In this document: positions 12,101-22,020 of the stretch, piece after piece
How positions within the stretch are numbered: the first letter of the stretch is position 1
Layout of the letters: the number at the start of each line of letters is the position of its first letter
NCBI RefSeq assembly: GCF_000970285.1
Contig: NZ_CP009516.1
Location: forward strand, 1,467,036 to 1,531,035
From: Methanosarcina horonobensis HB-1 = JCM 15518
Lineage (GTDB): Archaea > Halobacteriota > Methanosarcinia > Methanosarcinales > Methanosarcinaceae
Direction of reading: 5' to 3'
Length of the DNA: 64,000 nt
Made by a program: the position numbers and the translations under genes
The notes under the pieces: generated by a model
What the model was told of the DNA's origin: nothing
The model's input: only the letters and a program-made list of their open reading frames with translations
Database searches by the model: none

Positions 12101-12190
12101 GTGAACGGGTAAACCCTTTGTGGTTAGATTTTGTGGTGTGTTATTTGGGTGTGATCTTGTAGATGTGTAGTCAAGGGCAGGCCCGTTCAC
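12101..12190 (-). ncRNA. Small-RNA candidate, family member A
   Basis: The ends pair over 9 bp (GTGAACGGG 12101-12109 with CCCGTTCAC 12182-12190), and a second inner stem (CCCTT/AAGGG) extends the helix. Read on the minus strand it begins GTGAACGGGCC, has a mostly unpaired A/C-rich loop, closes with the complementary end and is followed by a T-rich tract (CATTCTTTTTCTTTATTATG). A TATA box (minus-strand ATTTATATAA, 12219-12228) lies about 30-35 bases upstream. Relative to members B-D the fifth base pair is A-T instead of G-C, a compensated change. No ORF is conserved. Confidence 0.6.
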
Positions 12191-12218: not shown

Positions 12219-12228
12219 TATATAAATA
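12219..12228 (-). promoter_or_regulatory. TATA box for small RNA A
   Basis: Minus-strand ATTTATATAA with A-rich sequence just upstream (possible BRE). The distance to the GTGAACGGG end is a few bases longer than in members B-D, so transcription may start slightly before it. Confidence 0.5.
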
Positions 12229-18154: not shown

Positions 18155-18319
18155 AACCTTATGGATAAGTAACATTCTTTTCCTCTAGATTATTGATTTT
18201 GAGATGCCATATTTAAAATCGACGTTGGAAGATTGCAAAAGTGACTGCAATTCACTTATTGAAAAAATTAAAACATATAAAGTTAATAATGAGTTCCTTT
18301 TTTATTGGTATGGTTTAAG

Positions 18320-20101
18320 ATGATGTCGGCAATTGAATGGGCTGAAAAATACCGACCCCGGACTCTTGGAGATGTCGTGGGGAACAAGAAAGCAGTGCAG
18401 GACTTGAGGAAGTGGGCTGAAGAATGGCAGTCCGGGATTCCTGAGAAAAGAGCTGTGATTCTCTATGGACCTGCGGGGATAGGGAAGACTTCAAGTGCTC
18501 ACGCACTGGCAGGGGACATGGACTGGGAGGTTATAGAGCTCAATGCAAGCGACCAGAGGACTGCAGGCGTTATTGAGAAAATTGCCGGCTCTGCAGCGTC
18601 AATGAATACTCTTTTTGGAGGTAAACGGCTTATTGTCCTTGATGAGGCTGATAACCTCCACGGGACTGCAGATAGGGGTGGGATGAGGGCTATTGCCGGG
18701 ATCATAAAAGCCACACTTCAGCCGATAGTACTTATTGCAAACGATATTTACGGGCTGACACCCACAGTCCGGAACATTTGTCTGGAAATAAAGTTCGGGT
18801 CCGTACAGAGCCGTTCCATGGTTCCTGCTTTGAAGAAGGTCTGTGATGCTGAGGGAATCTCCTGCAGCCAGGAAGCTATTCTGCAGATTGCAGAAAATGC
18901 AGGAGGAGATTTCAGGAGTGCAATGAATGACCTCCAGGCTGCAGCTAGTGGGAAGGAAGCGCTCGAAGTTGAGGACCTCAGCACTGCAGGCAGAGATGTC
19001 AAAGAGAATATCTTTAAGGCGATGCAGAAGATCTTTAAAAGCACTGACTGTAAAAGGGCTCTTGAATCTGCATACGGGCTTGATGAAAGCCCTGAGGATC
19101 TCGTGCACTGGATAGACGAAAACCTGCCAATTCAGTATGCTCGGAAGGATGGCGACCTCGAAGATATAAGAGCGGGTTTTGGATATCTTTCAAAGGCTGA
19201 TCTTTATCTTGGGCGTGTGAAAAAGCGCCAGAACTACAGGATGTGGAGGTATGCCAGCATGCTTATGGTTTGCGGGGCTGCCCTTTCAAAGACAAGACCG
19301 TATCCCGGCTTCATCAAGTATCAGCAGCCTTCACTCTGGAGAAGGCTTGGACAGACACGTTCGAAGCGGGACATGCGAGACAATATAGCTTCAAAGATAG
19401 GGGAGCACAGCTTTGAATCAATGCATTACTCCAGGAATAACCTTTTAGGTTTTTATGCGTTGATGTTAAAGGATGAAGCATCTGCTATTGAAGTAACTGC
19501 AAGTCTCGGGCTTGAGCTTGAAGAGCTGATGTATCTTTCAGGAAGCGCAAAAGCAAGCAAAAAGCTGCAGAAAATTTACGATGAAGCGCAGAAGCTTCTC
19601 GAGAAGAAGGGCGATAAAGCCGAAGAACAGGCCTTTTTTAAGGTACCTGCTCCCTTGGTAGACGAAAAGCAGACAACTCTTCACTGCCCTGTTAATATTC
19701 CTGAAAAAGAACAGGAAGTTCCCTCTGAAAAATCCGAAACTTCTGATTCTCAACCTCCGGAAGGTAAGCAGAAAACCCTTAACCTGGGATTTGATATCTC
19801 GCCCGAGCCTCCAGAGAAAGAAGAGGCTTCAGAAAAGAAACTATCCGAGGACCCGGTACCTGAAGAAGATAACTTCTTTCCTCTTCCCAAATCCATGCAA
19901 GAAAAGAAACTCATTTCCGAACCTGTAGAGAAGAAAACCCTTTCCACAACTTCAAAAAAGAAGGGTTCGGATGGCAGCATCGATCCTTCAAAACAAAGGA
20001 CATCTGATAAGGCTTCACCTTCCGCAGGTATGCAGGATAACACAGGAGAAGTTTTGAAAAAAGCTGAGCCTAAAAACCAGAAAACACTTTTCGACTTTTA
20101 A
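18320..20101 (+). CDS. rfcL: Replication factor C large subunit
   Basis: 593 residues from ATG 18320 ([22 protein letters not shown], the family start). Clamp-loader AAA+ ATPase: Walker [15 protein letters not shown], Walker [11 protein letters not shown], then the RFC collar. It loads PCNA at primer-template junctions together with RfcS. The C-terminal ~190 residues are a low-complexity Lys/Glu/Pro/Ser tail that ends QKTLFDF, a PCNA-interacting (PIP) box, with a second PIP-like QKTLNLGF near residue 490. Such tails with terminal PIP box are typical of euryarchaeal RfcL. Monocistronic. Confidence 0.96.
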
Positions 20102-20287: not shown

Positions 20288-20370
20288 GTGAGCGGAATGA
20301 CGGGGTTGACTTTGAATGAAAGAAAAAAATTGCTGGTGTGTTTGGGAAGTTTGGACTGGAATCCGCTCAC
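20288..20370 (-). ncRNA. Small-RNA candidate, family member B
   Basis: The ends pair over 12 bp with flanks (TTTGTGAGCGGA 20285-20296 / TCCGCTCACAAA 20362-20373). On the minus strand it starts GTGAGCGGATTCC, carries a loop with CTTCCCAAAC and AACCCCGTC, then closes with CCGCTCAC followed by AAAAAACTAACGTTTTCTT. A TATA box (20393-20401) is centred 27 bases upstream of the 5' G. The least C-rich member, but with the same end architecture as the others. Confidence 0.65.
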
Positions 20371-20392
20371 AAATATTACTATGTAACTTCAG

Positions 20393-20401
20393 TTATAAAT
20401 A
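20393..20401 (-). promoter_or_regulatory. TATA box for small RNA B
   Basis: Minus-strand TATTTATAA preceded by AAAAAAG; centred about 27 bases from the predicted 5' end, the usual archaeal spacing. Confidence 0.55.
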
Positions 20402-20655
20402 CTTTTTTAATATATTTAGTATATCTCTTTTCCTATCTATTTCTTTGATTTAACTACCAGAGATAACTCTATATTCTGCATGATTTCGTAGATAAATGAG
20501 ACCGAGAGAACGTTACTGCAGCAAATAAGGTGAGGTTAAGAACCTGATAACTGAAGTTGAGAAAAACCTGATCAATGTTAGGAACTGGTGAGATAAAACT
20601 GGATAATGTTAAACAGTGTTAAGAAAAGTTGAGAAATAAAGTCATGAGAAAAGTT

Positions 20656-20746
20656 GTGAGCGGGTTTGGGGAGTTTGGGGAATAGTTGGGGGAATAGTTG
20701 GGGGATATGGGTTTGGGGTTATACTATGGAAAAGAGACCCGCTCAC
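20656..20746 (-). ncRNA. Small-RNA candidate, family member C
   Basis: The ends pair over 10 bp (GTGAGCGGGT 20656-20665 / ACCCGCTCAC 20737-20746). The minus-strand RNA would start GTGAGCGGGTCTCTTTTCC and then contain seven C-runs of three to five separated by A/T (ACCCC, ACCC, TCCCCC twice, TCCCC, TCCCC, ACCC) with almost no self-pairing. It shares the block after the 5' end (GGGTCTCTTTT...ATAACCCCAA) with member D. After the closing stem comes AACTTTTCTC. The TATA box at 20771-20778 is centred 28 bases upstream. Confidence 0.7.
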
Positions 20747-20770
20747 TTAGCATGAGTAATCATTACATAC

Positions 20771-20778
20771 TATAAATA
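20771..20778 (-). promoter_or_regulatory. TATA box for small RNA C
   Basis: Minus-strand TATTTATA with GGAAAGC upstream as possible BRE; centre 28 bases from the predicted start. Confidence 0.6.
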
Positions 20779-21273
20779 GCTTTCCATTATATACCTCACA
20801 ATTTATAATTACAGTCTTATAGTTAATTTTTTCTAAAACTGTATTTCATGATGCCGTTTTTTTAGAATATATGCCGCCCGGTAAAAATGATAAGGACCTT
20901 AGTGACACTAAAAGAAACATAGATAAGAAATAATAGTACTGATAATAGGTTCATTTTTATTACATATTTAAAGAACTTGCTGACAAAAGTGATGATACAG
21001 CTGATTTTGTTATCTTTATTTCTGGATAATGTTCAGTATCAATTAAGTACTACCTGGTACCACTCCAATATTCCTGAGTAACCTGCATTCCTGAGTAGTC
21101 TCAAAACTGGCTTGGCCTGTATGATTTTTCAGTCACATCCGTAATGGTAGACCTGATAAGATGATCTATTAACAGCACTTCTTTGATAATAGGAAGCAGT
21201 AAGCTAACAGTCACGGAATCCGTCAGGTAAACAGGAAATATTTAACACATTATATCTTTTTATAAGAATAAGT

Positions 21274-21346
21274 ATGAGCGGGTTGGGGAGTATGAATTGG
21301 GGTGTTGGGGGGTTGGGGTTATCTTACAAAAGAGAGACCCGCTCAC
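21274..21346 (-). ncRNA. Small-RNA candidate, family member D
   Basis: The ends pair over 9 bp (TGAGCGGGT 21275-21283 / ACCCGCTCA 21337-21345). On the minus strand it starts GTGAGCGGGTCTCTCTTTTG and then has ATAACCCCAACCCCCCAACA, ACCCCAATTC and CTCCCCAACCCGCTCA. It is the shortest member (about 73 bases) and clearly homologous to C. A T-rich stretch (TACTTATTCTTAT) follows the closing stem. The TATA box at 21369-21379 is centred about 27 bases upstream. Confidence 0.7.
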
Positions 21347-21368: not shown

Positions 21369-21379
21369 TATAAATATAT
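21369..21379 (-). promoter_or_regulatory. TATA box for small RNA D
   Basis: Minus-strand ATATATTTATA preceded by GCAAA; standard archaeal distance to the GTGAGCGGG end. Confidence 0.6.
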
Positions 21380-21682: not shown

Positions 21683-21756
21683 GGGCTCGTGGTCTAGTCG
21701 GTCATGACATCGCCTTTACACGGCGGGGATCCTGAGTTCGAATCTCAGCGGGCCCA
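21683..21756 (+). tRNA. tRNA-Val (anticodon UAC)
   Basis: 74 bases. Acceptor stem GGGCTCG/CGGGCCC, anticodon stem TCGCC/GGCGG with loop TTTACAC (anticodon TAC, valine), T arm CTGAG-TTCGAAT-CTCAG, discriminator A. CCA is not encoded, and no intron is present. A TATA-like CATATATATA lies near 21595. Confidence 0.95.
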
Positions 21757-22020
21757 CTACTCTTTTTTGAGTTTAATTTCCTTTAAATTAAGGAATTTTT
21801 TTATATAGAAGCAACCTGTATTTATTATCTATTATCAATTACGGGTTAAATTTCCTTTTTAAAACTTAATGCTTTATATAATACTGATATCGTTATATAG
21901 AAAGGGGAACGATAAAGACTTAGAATCTTTGTTACCTACAAAAAGATCCGCTTTAATATATTTAATAAGCGTTGATTCTTACAAAGATTATTTCTAATCT
22001 ACGTGGGGGAGGAGTCAGTA

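Follow-up and report, generated by a model that had tools for sequence, protein, structure and literature searches.

Few archaeal sRNAs with known targets have been described. In bacteria, sRNAs with C-rich seed loops such as RsaE mask Shine-Dalgarno sites, and the protein sponges CsrB and RsmZ offer CsrA its GGA motifs on numerous hairpins. Amongst the sRNAs of Methanosarcina mazei, sRNA41 is an intergenic RNA that masks ribosome-binding sites in trans and is reported to act on the ACDS operon (Buddeweg et al. 2018, as summarised in PMC5867862). The 130 nt sRNA154 lies between MM3337 and MM3338, with an NrpR operator and a 20-aa sORF (PMC3177094, PMC11456600), and is reported to stabilise the mRNA of some of its targets (PMC5867862). 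The sRNA162/sRNA171 pair, with a length of 191 nt and three stem-loops, has been reported from three Methanosarcina species only and acts via the regulator MM2441 (PMC3510493).

In the DNA analysed here, a stretch of 64,000 nt (the window; G000:C1:1467036-1531035 of the 5.02 Mb genome of Methanosarcina horonobensis HB-1), an earlier note had proposed that four elements with complementary ends (A–D) form a multi-copy family of regulatory small RNAs transcribed from the minus strand. A multi-copy small RNA family on that strand remains the best reading, although the term regulatory is well supported for member F alone and transcription is inferred, as there are no RNA data; the count of four was too low, the genome containing six members (A–F, Table 1). 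In its mode of working, F is like an RBS-masking sRNA: similar to sRNA41, it is a Methanosarcina intergenic sRNA predicted to mask ribosome-binding sites in trans, but the reported target of sRNA41 is the ACDS operon and such pairing was not found for the six loops in the related genome G006. The family also resembles sRNA154, one loop of which masks the RBS of glnA2, yet that RNA has a different locus and a different architecture from the clamp-stem family. In case of sRNA162/sRNA171, a homologous sRNA pair is likewise present in one genome and methyltransferase gene expression is affected, whereas size, the three stem-loops and action via MM2441 set this pair apart. With RsaE-type RNAs the family shares unpaired C-rich segments facing ribosome-binding sites, but those RNAs are bacterial and have no end-to-end closing clamp; with CsrB and RsmZ it shares short repeated loop motifs, but has one open C-rich loop and no known protein. 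A clamp combined with exchangeable loops is not in Rfam, and we found no description of such an arrangement.

The minus strands of A–D read GTGARCGG...CCGYTCAC, which bears out both the positions and the complementary ends described earlier, as well as the compensated exchange of A-T for G-C at the fifth pair of A. The pattern GTGANCGG-N46-76-CCGNTCAC matches A, B and C exactly in the window (3 matches, with 0 in 100 dinucleotide shuffles), and D departs from it at the outermost pair alone (G-U on the minus strand). Each of the four minus strands folds better than all of its 200 shuffles (z -3.6 to -4.6), the closing stem being almost the sole structure around a long, open C-/A-rich loop, whilst the plus strands fold more weakly (z -1.9 to -3.0). 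All six members exhibit a TATA box upstream on the C-rich strand; for A–D the claimed distances agree with ours (Table 1), and the longer distance in case of A implies a 5' leader of a few nt. The T-rich stretch said to follow the closing stem is present after A and C (T fraction of 0.56 and 0.47 over the next 40 nt) but not clear after B and D (0.34 and 0.38). A scan for bacterial-type promoters and terminators gave chance levels only.

Table 1. Members of the clamp-stem family, their TATA boxes and bordering genes. Positions are those of the window, except for E and F (genome positions).
Feature	Position	Strand	Remarks
Member A, sRNA element	12101..12190	-	90 nt; 9-bp closing stem and inner stem CCCTT/AAGGG; loop core TACAAGATCACACC
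TATA box of A (TATTTATATA)	12219..12228	-	centre ~33.5 nt upstream
rfcL, replication factor C large subunit	18305..20101	+	conserved neighbour of B-C-D; outside the RNA genes
Member B, sRNA element	20288..20370	-	83 nt; 9-bp closing stem; loop TTCCAGTCCAAACTTCCCAAACACACC...GTCAACCCC; based on sequence, fold, genome pattern match and covariance model; syntenic orthologues adjoin rfcL
TATA box of B (TATTTATAA)	20393..20401	-	centre ~27 nt upstream of element
Member C, sRNA element	20656..20746	-	91 nt; 10-bp closing stem; CCCCCAACTATT repeats in loop
TATA box of C (TATTTATA)	20771..20778	-	centre ~28 nt upstream
Member D, sRNA element	21274..21346	-	73 nt; outermost closing pair G-U; loop GATAACCCCAACCCCCCAACACCCCAATTCATACTCCCC
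TATA box of D (TATATTTATA)	21369..21378	-	conserved BRE-like AGCAAAA before box; centre ~27 nt upstream
tRNA-Val(TAC)	21683..21757	+	opposite border of gene-free gap
Member E	G000:C1:849017-849089	+	exact pattern copy elsewhere in genome, outside window
Member F (L005)	G000:C1:1683612-1683695	+	exact pattern copy elsewhere in genome, outside window

The exact pattern is present in 30 of 31 Methanosarcina genomes (0 for the reversed pattern used as control), and the sole genome without it is 60% complete. A search of relatives with a covariance model, as the earlier note had suggested, recovers the family: model R1, built from 21 sequences, identified members in 90 of 112 Methanosarcinaceae genomes and in 10 of 14 genera. 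The 9-bp terminal stem GTGARCGGG/CCCGYTCAC that defines membership of R1 is conserved with compensation, and the expectation that homologues would keep their terminal pairing was met: 100% of stem cells are paired in 38 matches from 10 genera, the stem consists entirely of standard pairs in 35 distinct distant relatives from ten genera, and both bases have changed in five of the nine pairs (U-A to C-G, G-C to A-U, G-C to U-A, C-G to U-A). In controls with the partner column offset by one to three positions, pairing fell to 31–53%. The alignment was fitted to the covariance model and is hence biased toward pairing, although most of its rows were not used in model building.

Between Methanosarcina orthologues, identity amounts to 0.77–0.98 within the element, 0.63–0.80 in the promoter and ~0.5–0.6 in the outer flanks. 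The TATA box stands at a fixed distance on the C-rich strand, which is nearly constant in A, F and most C (by the measure used, 36–37 nt in nearly all A and 31–32 nt in all F), and scatters in B and D, in part through extra TATA-like matches in the scan. Each type occurs as a single copy at a fixed, syntenic place: rfcL and an Sso10a gene flank the B-C-D group both in Methanosarcina and in a second genus, A is located next to ilvD, E next to hppA and F next to a universal stress protein gene, with no conserved neighbour gene common to all six loci. Conserved units of promoter plus element, unconserved flanks and synteny indicate genes rather than chance palindromes, and the length differences of one or two bases between orthologous elements argue against coding. 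As far as sequence can establish genes, structure and conservation, we are highly confident that this is a genuine ncRNA family. The loops of A–E show strong conservation, which in D and E is almost letter for letter; the loop motifs of both are nearly invariant across the genus and beyond, and the D loop remains so into two other genera. One locus from genus g11 (L216) contains an extra 18-nt loop repeat unit (AACCCCCACTCCCACACT) when compared to L212, L213 and L214, as if loop length were adjustable.

With the whole window searched against Rfam release 15 at gathering score, only tRNA was returned; at relaxed E-value, the element regions gave two chance matches, both outside the elements, and nothing was returned for E, F, mtaC or a locus from a distant genus. 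The earlier statement that no named RNA fits A–D therefore stands as far as Rfam is concerned, and the family is apparently uncatalogued and undescribed, no description having been found, with the published M. mazei sRNA lists outside this comparison. In a class-wide search with the covariance model, 20 of 39 genera were matched at E 0.001; the matches outside Methanosarcinaceae are weaker (best E 2.9e-8), and their sequences were not read. Within the order-level genomes (G114-G187), such weaker matches fall in four other families by model score only, for example G140:C68:86-162 (E 2.9e-8). Matches with GTGACCGG ends in G021 and G022 (L027) were rejected as unrelated G+C-rich sequence.

Evidence for a function comes from member F. 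Its loop contains ATCCAACATATTTTAACCTCC, the exact complement of GGAGGTTAAAATATGTTGGAT, and over 21 nt is perfectly antisense to the Shine-Dalgarno sequence, spacer, ATG and next two codons of mtaC: when up to 3 mismatches were allowed, the sole other site of the F sequence in its own genome was the start of a 258-aa gene, identified as encoding the methanol-corrinoid protein MtaC (NCBIfam, above cut-off). Of the 31 Methanosarcina genomes, 25 carry an exact 20-nt core at F as well as at mtaC (0 in control orientation), and four, two of which are at least 92% complete, have it at neither site. Across 84,980 species (one genome each), the 20-mer has 36 exact places, namely 17 F genes and 19 mtaC starts. 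In a screen of 3328 SD-type starts from 73% of G006 (2.4 of 3.28 Mb), mtaC came first for F with -34.7/-34.1 kcal/mol (the values for two start codons at a single site) against a background of -13.3 kcal/mol (sd 3.7); a 539-aa gene was level with mtaC (-34.1 kcal/mol) and an mtaC paralogue followed two places further down (-27.4, a value shared by another gene), while shuffled F loops reached just -26.6 to -32.1, weaker than the true loop. F hence shows the conserved complementarity to the Shine-Dalgarno sequence and start codon of a distant gene that is expected of a trans-antisense sRNA acting at the ribosome-binding site, and we consider regulation of mtaC by F through pairing to be likely. 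In the Methanosarcina genomes G017 and G024, the mtaC start motif, F and the activase start were not found and other members were present, possibly reflecting joint loss.

NCBIfam places the 539-aa protein among the RamA-type corrinoid activases, and the stretch of F that matches the start of its gene overlaps the stretch pairing with mtaC. The activase start TTGGAGGAGGTTAAGATATGAGAA was found in 23 of 31 Methanosarcina genomes; its variable base agrees with F in G001, G008 and G022 and disagrees in G009 and G014, so that the match is imperfect in some species, and in G011, G013 and G029 no match of F to the activase was found. Two overlapping target sites in one pathway account for the conserved 30-nt stretch of F. 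On the opposite strand of F there is a Shine-Dalgarno sequence and an ATG with a short ORF (8–13 codons, of which MLD or ML alone is conserved), and a conserved TATATA lies ~30 nt past the F 3' end; F may be transcribed in both directions or go back to a copy of the mtaC start in inverted orientation.

Taken as a whole, the explanation that we consider probable is that A–F are stand-alone small RNA genes, each presumably read from the C-rich strand by means of an archaeal TATA promoter of its own. In the transcript, the 5' end would pair with the 3' end to give a 9–10 bp clamp (GUGARCGGG/CCCGYUCAC) holding open an unstructured loop of 50–75 nt, which would be the active part of each member. 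F would then act as a trans antisense RNA, with 21 nt predicted to pair with mtaC across its Shine-Dalgarno sequence, spacer and start codon, and an overlapping stretch with the start of the activase gene, most likely keeping ribosomes off both starts and blocking translation; the complementarity is read from sequence, whereas repression is inferred, and the alternative outcome is a stabilised mRNA, the effect reported for some targets of sRNA154. We know of no regulator behind the post-transcriptional control of methanol methyltransferase isozymes. Such control (of mtaCB) was named in 2009 by Opulencia, Bose and Metcalf, as cited in a later paper (PMC3510493). F is a concrete candidate for this role, and its pairing with mtaC makes the reported isozyme control directly testable, as the 21-nt site can be probed by compensatory mutation in genetically tractable Methanosarcina; should A–E also be functional, there would be a whole family of uncharacterised regulators in the makers of much of the world's biological methane. 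Only tentatively do we extend this to an order-wide clamp-stem RNA family, which may include ANME-2 relatives and in which exchangeable loops are combined with a single structural frame: one loop would set the translation of the methanol methyltransferase genes jointly with that of their activase, and the C-rich loops would constitute a multivalent layer of post-transcriptional control without parallel among the described classes of archaeal sRNA.

Inverted ends that are short, nearly identical and present at several sites of a single genome could also belong to a small mobile element (MITE) or act at the level of the DNA, instead of delimiting RNA genes. Single copies of each type at fixed, syntenic places without target-site duplications exclude a MITE for practical purposes, and the interiors are unlike one another, the promoter is always on the same side and pair changes are compensatory; we thus give this reading almost no weight. 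On another reading, the family could already be known from RNA-seq lists of M. mazei, for example as sRNA41, without having been described as a family: many intergenic sRNAs of M. mazei are listed, and sRNA41 acts on ribosome-binding sites (PMC5867862). This is rather unlikely in our view, given that neither sRNA154 nor sRNA162 resembles the family in locus, length or structure and that the ACDS operon reported for sRNA41 had to be rejected as a target, with no strong pairing at its structural gene starts in G006 for any of the six loops; the sRNA41 sequence was not compared, and some member may still be identical to a catalogued M. mazei sRNA, sRNA41 included. In case of F, the active transcript might be the opposite strand, acting as decoy or leader peptide and not as antisense RNA, as GGAGGAGG and an ATG with an 8–13 codon ORF occur there in all species and the TATATA beyond the 3' end is accompanied by a downstream identity of 0.75. 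The peptide is, however, unconserved past MLD, and on the C-rich side the promoter agrees in spacing and position with those of the whole family, which renders the opposite-strand transcript improbable.

How A–E would act on RNAs or a protein through their loops is inferred, and neither partner has been identified. Against the 3328 start windows (2.4 of 3.28 Mb of G006), the loops of A, C, D and E performed no better than shuffled loops, and conserved complementarity to the Shine-Dalgarno sequence and start codon of a distant gene was not seen for these four, though in an incomplete genome a target may have been missed; the own-genome B loop was screened against the starts of G006 only, where no B was found. 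The A core GGGTGTGATCTTGTAGATGTG finds just itself in its own genome, and corrinoid protein loci gave scattered matches to A–E without conservation. An ornithine-cyclodeaminase/alanine-dehydrogenase-like start in G006, with a 15-mer over Shine-Dalgarno sequence and ATG, was rejected as target of C for lack of conservation in the genus: the 15-nt complement of the C loop (G006:C1:401435-401449, minus strand) is present in that species only. Pairing of A–E at ribosome-binding sites is therefore possible yet doubtful; partners may have been missed (27% of G006 lay outside the screen), sites may be many and short or weak, or the loops may bind protein. The last of these, in which a protein that binds C-rich RNA is titrated or recruited by CCCCAAC/CCCCACUCCCC repeats in the open loop, in the manner of a CsrB-like sponge, and F alone became antisense, is a conceivable reading that we likewise cannot favour: the C-rich motifs are repeated, L216 has its extra 18-nt repeat compared to L213, as multivalent binding predicts, and E and D keep their motifs almost unchanged even though A, C, D and E have no long complementary partner in 73% of G006, but there is no protein candidate, no neighbour gene is shared by the six loci and the screened genome is incomplete. 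A further suggestion, that E (perhaps also C and D) is a broad anti-Shine-Dalgarno RNA whose ACUCCCC repeats pair with GGGGAGU(G) ribosome-binding sites of many mRNAs, draws on GGGGAGTG, the complement of the E loop repeat, ranking as the most enriched of 1262 GGAG-containing 8-mers at the SD-type starts of G006 (10 seen, 0.6 expected). We regard it as unlikely: the counts are small, come from one genome and were tested only post hoc, the gene calls behind several of the starts are doubtful and C and D show little enrichment. The GGGGAGTG starts in G006, for example at 579729 (+), 991355 (-) and 1946120 (-), include large membrane-protein-like genes.
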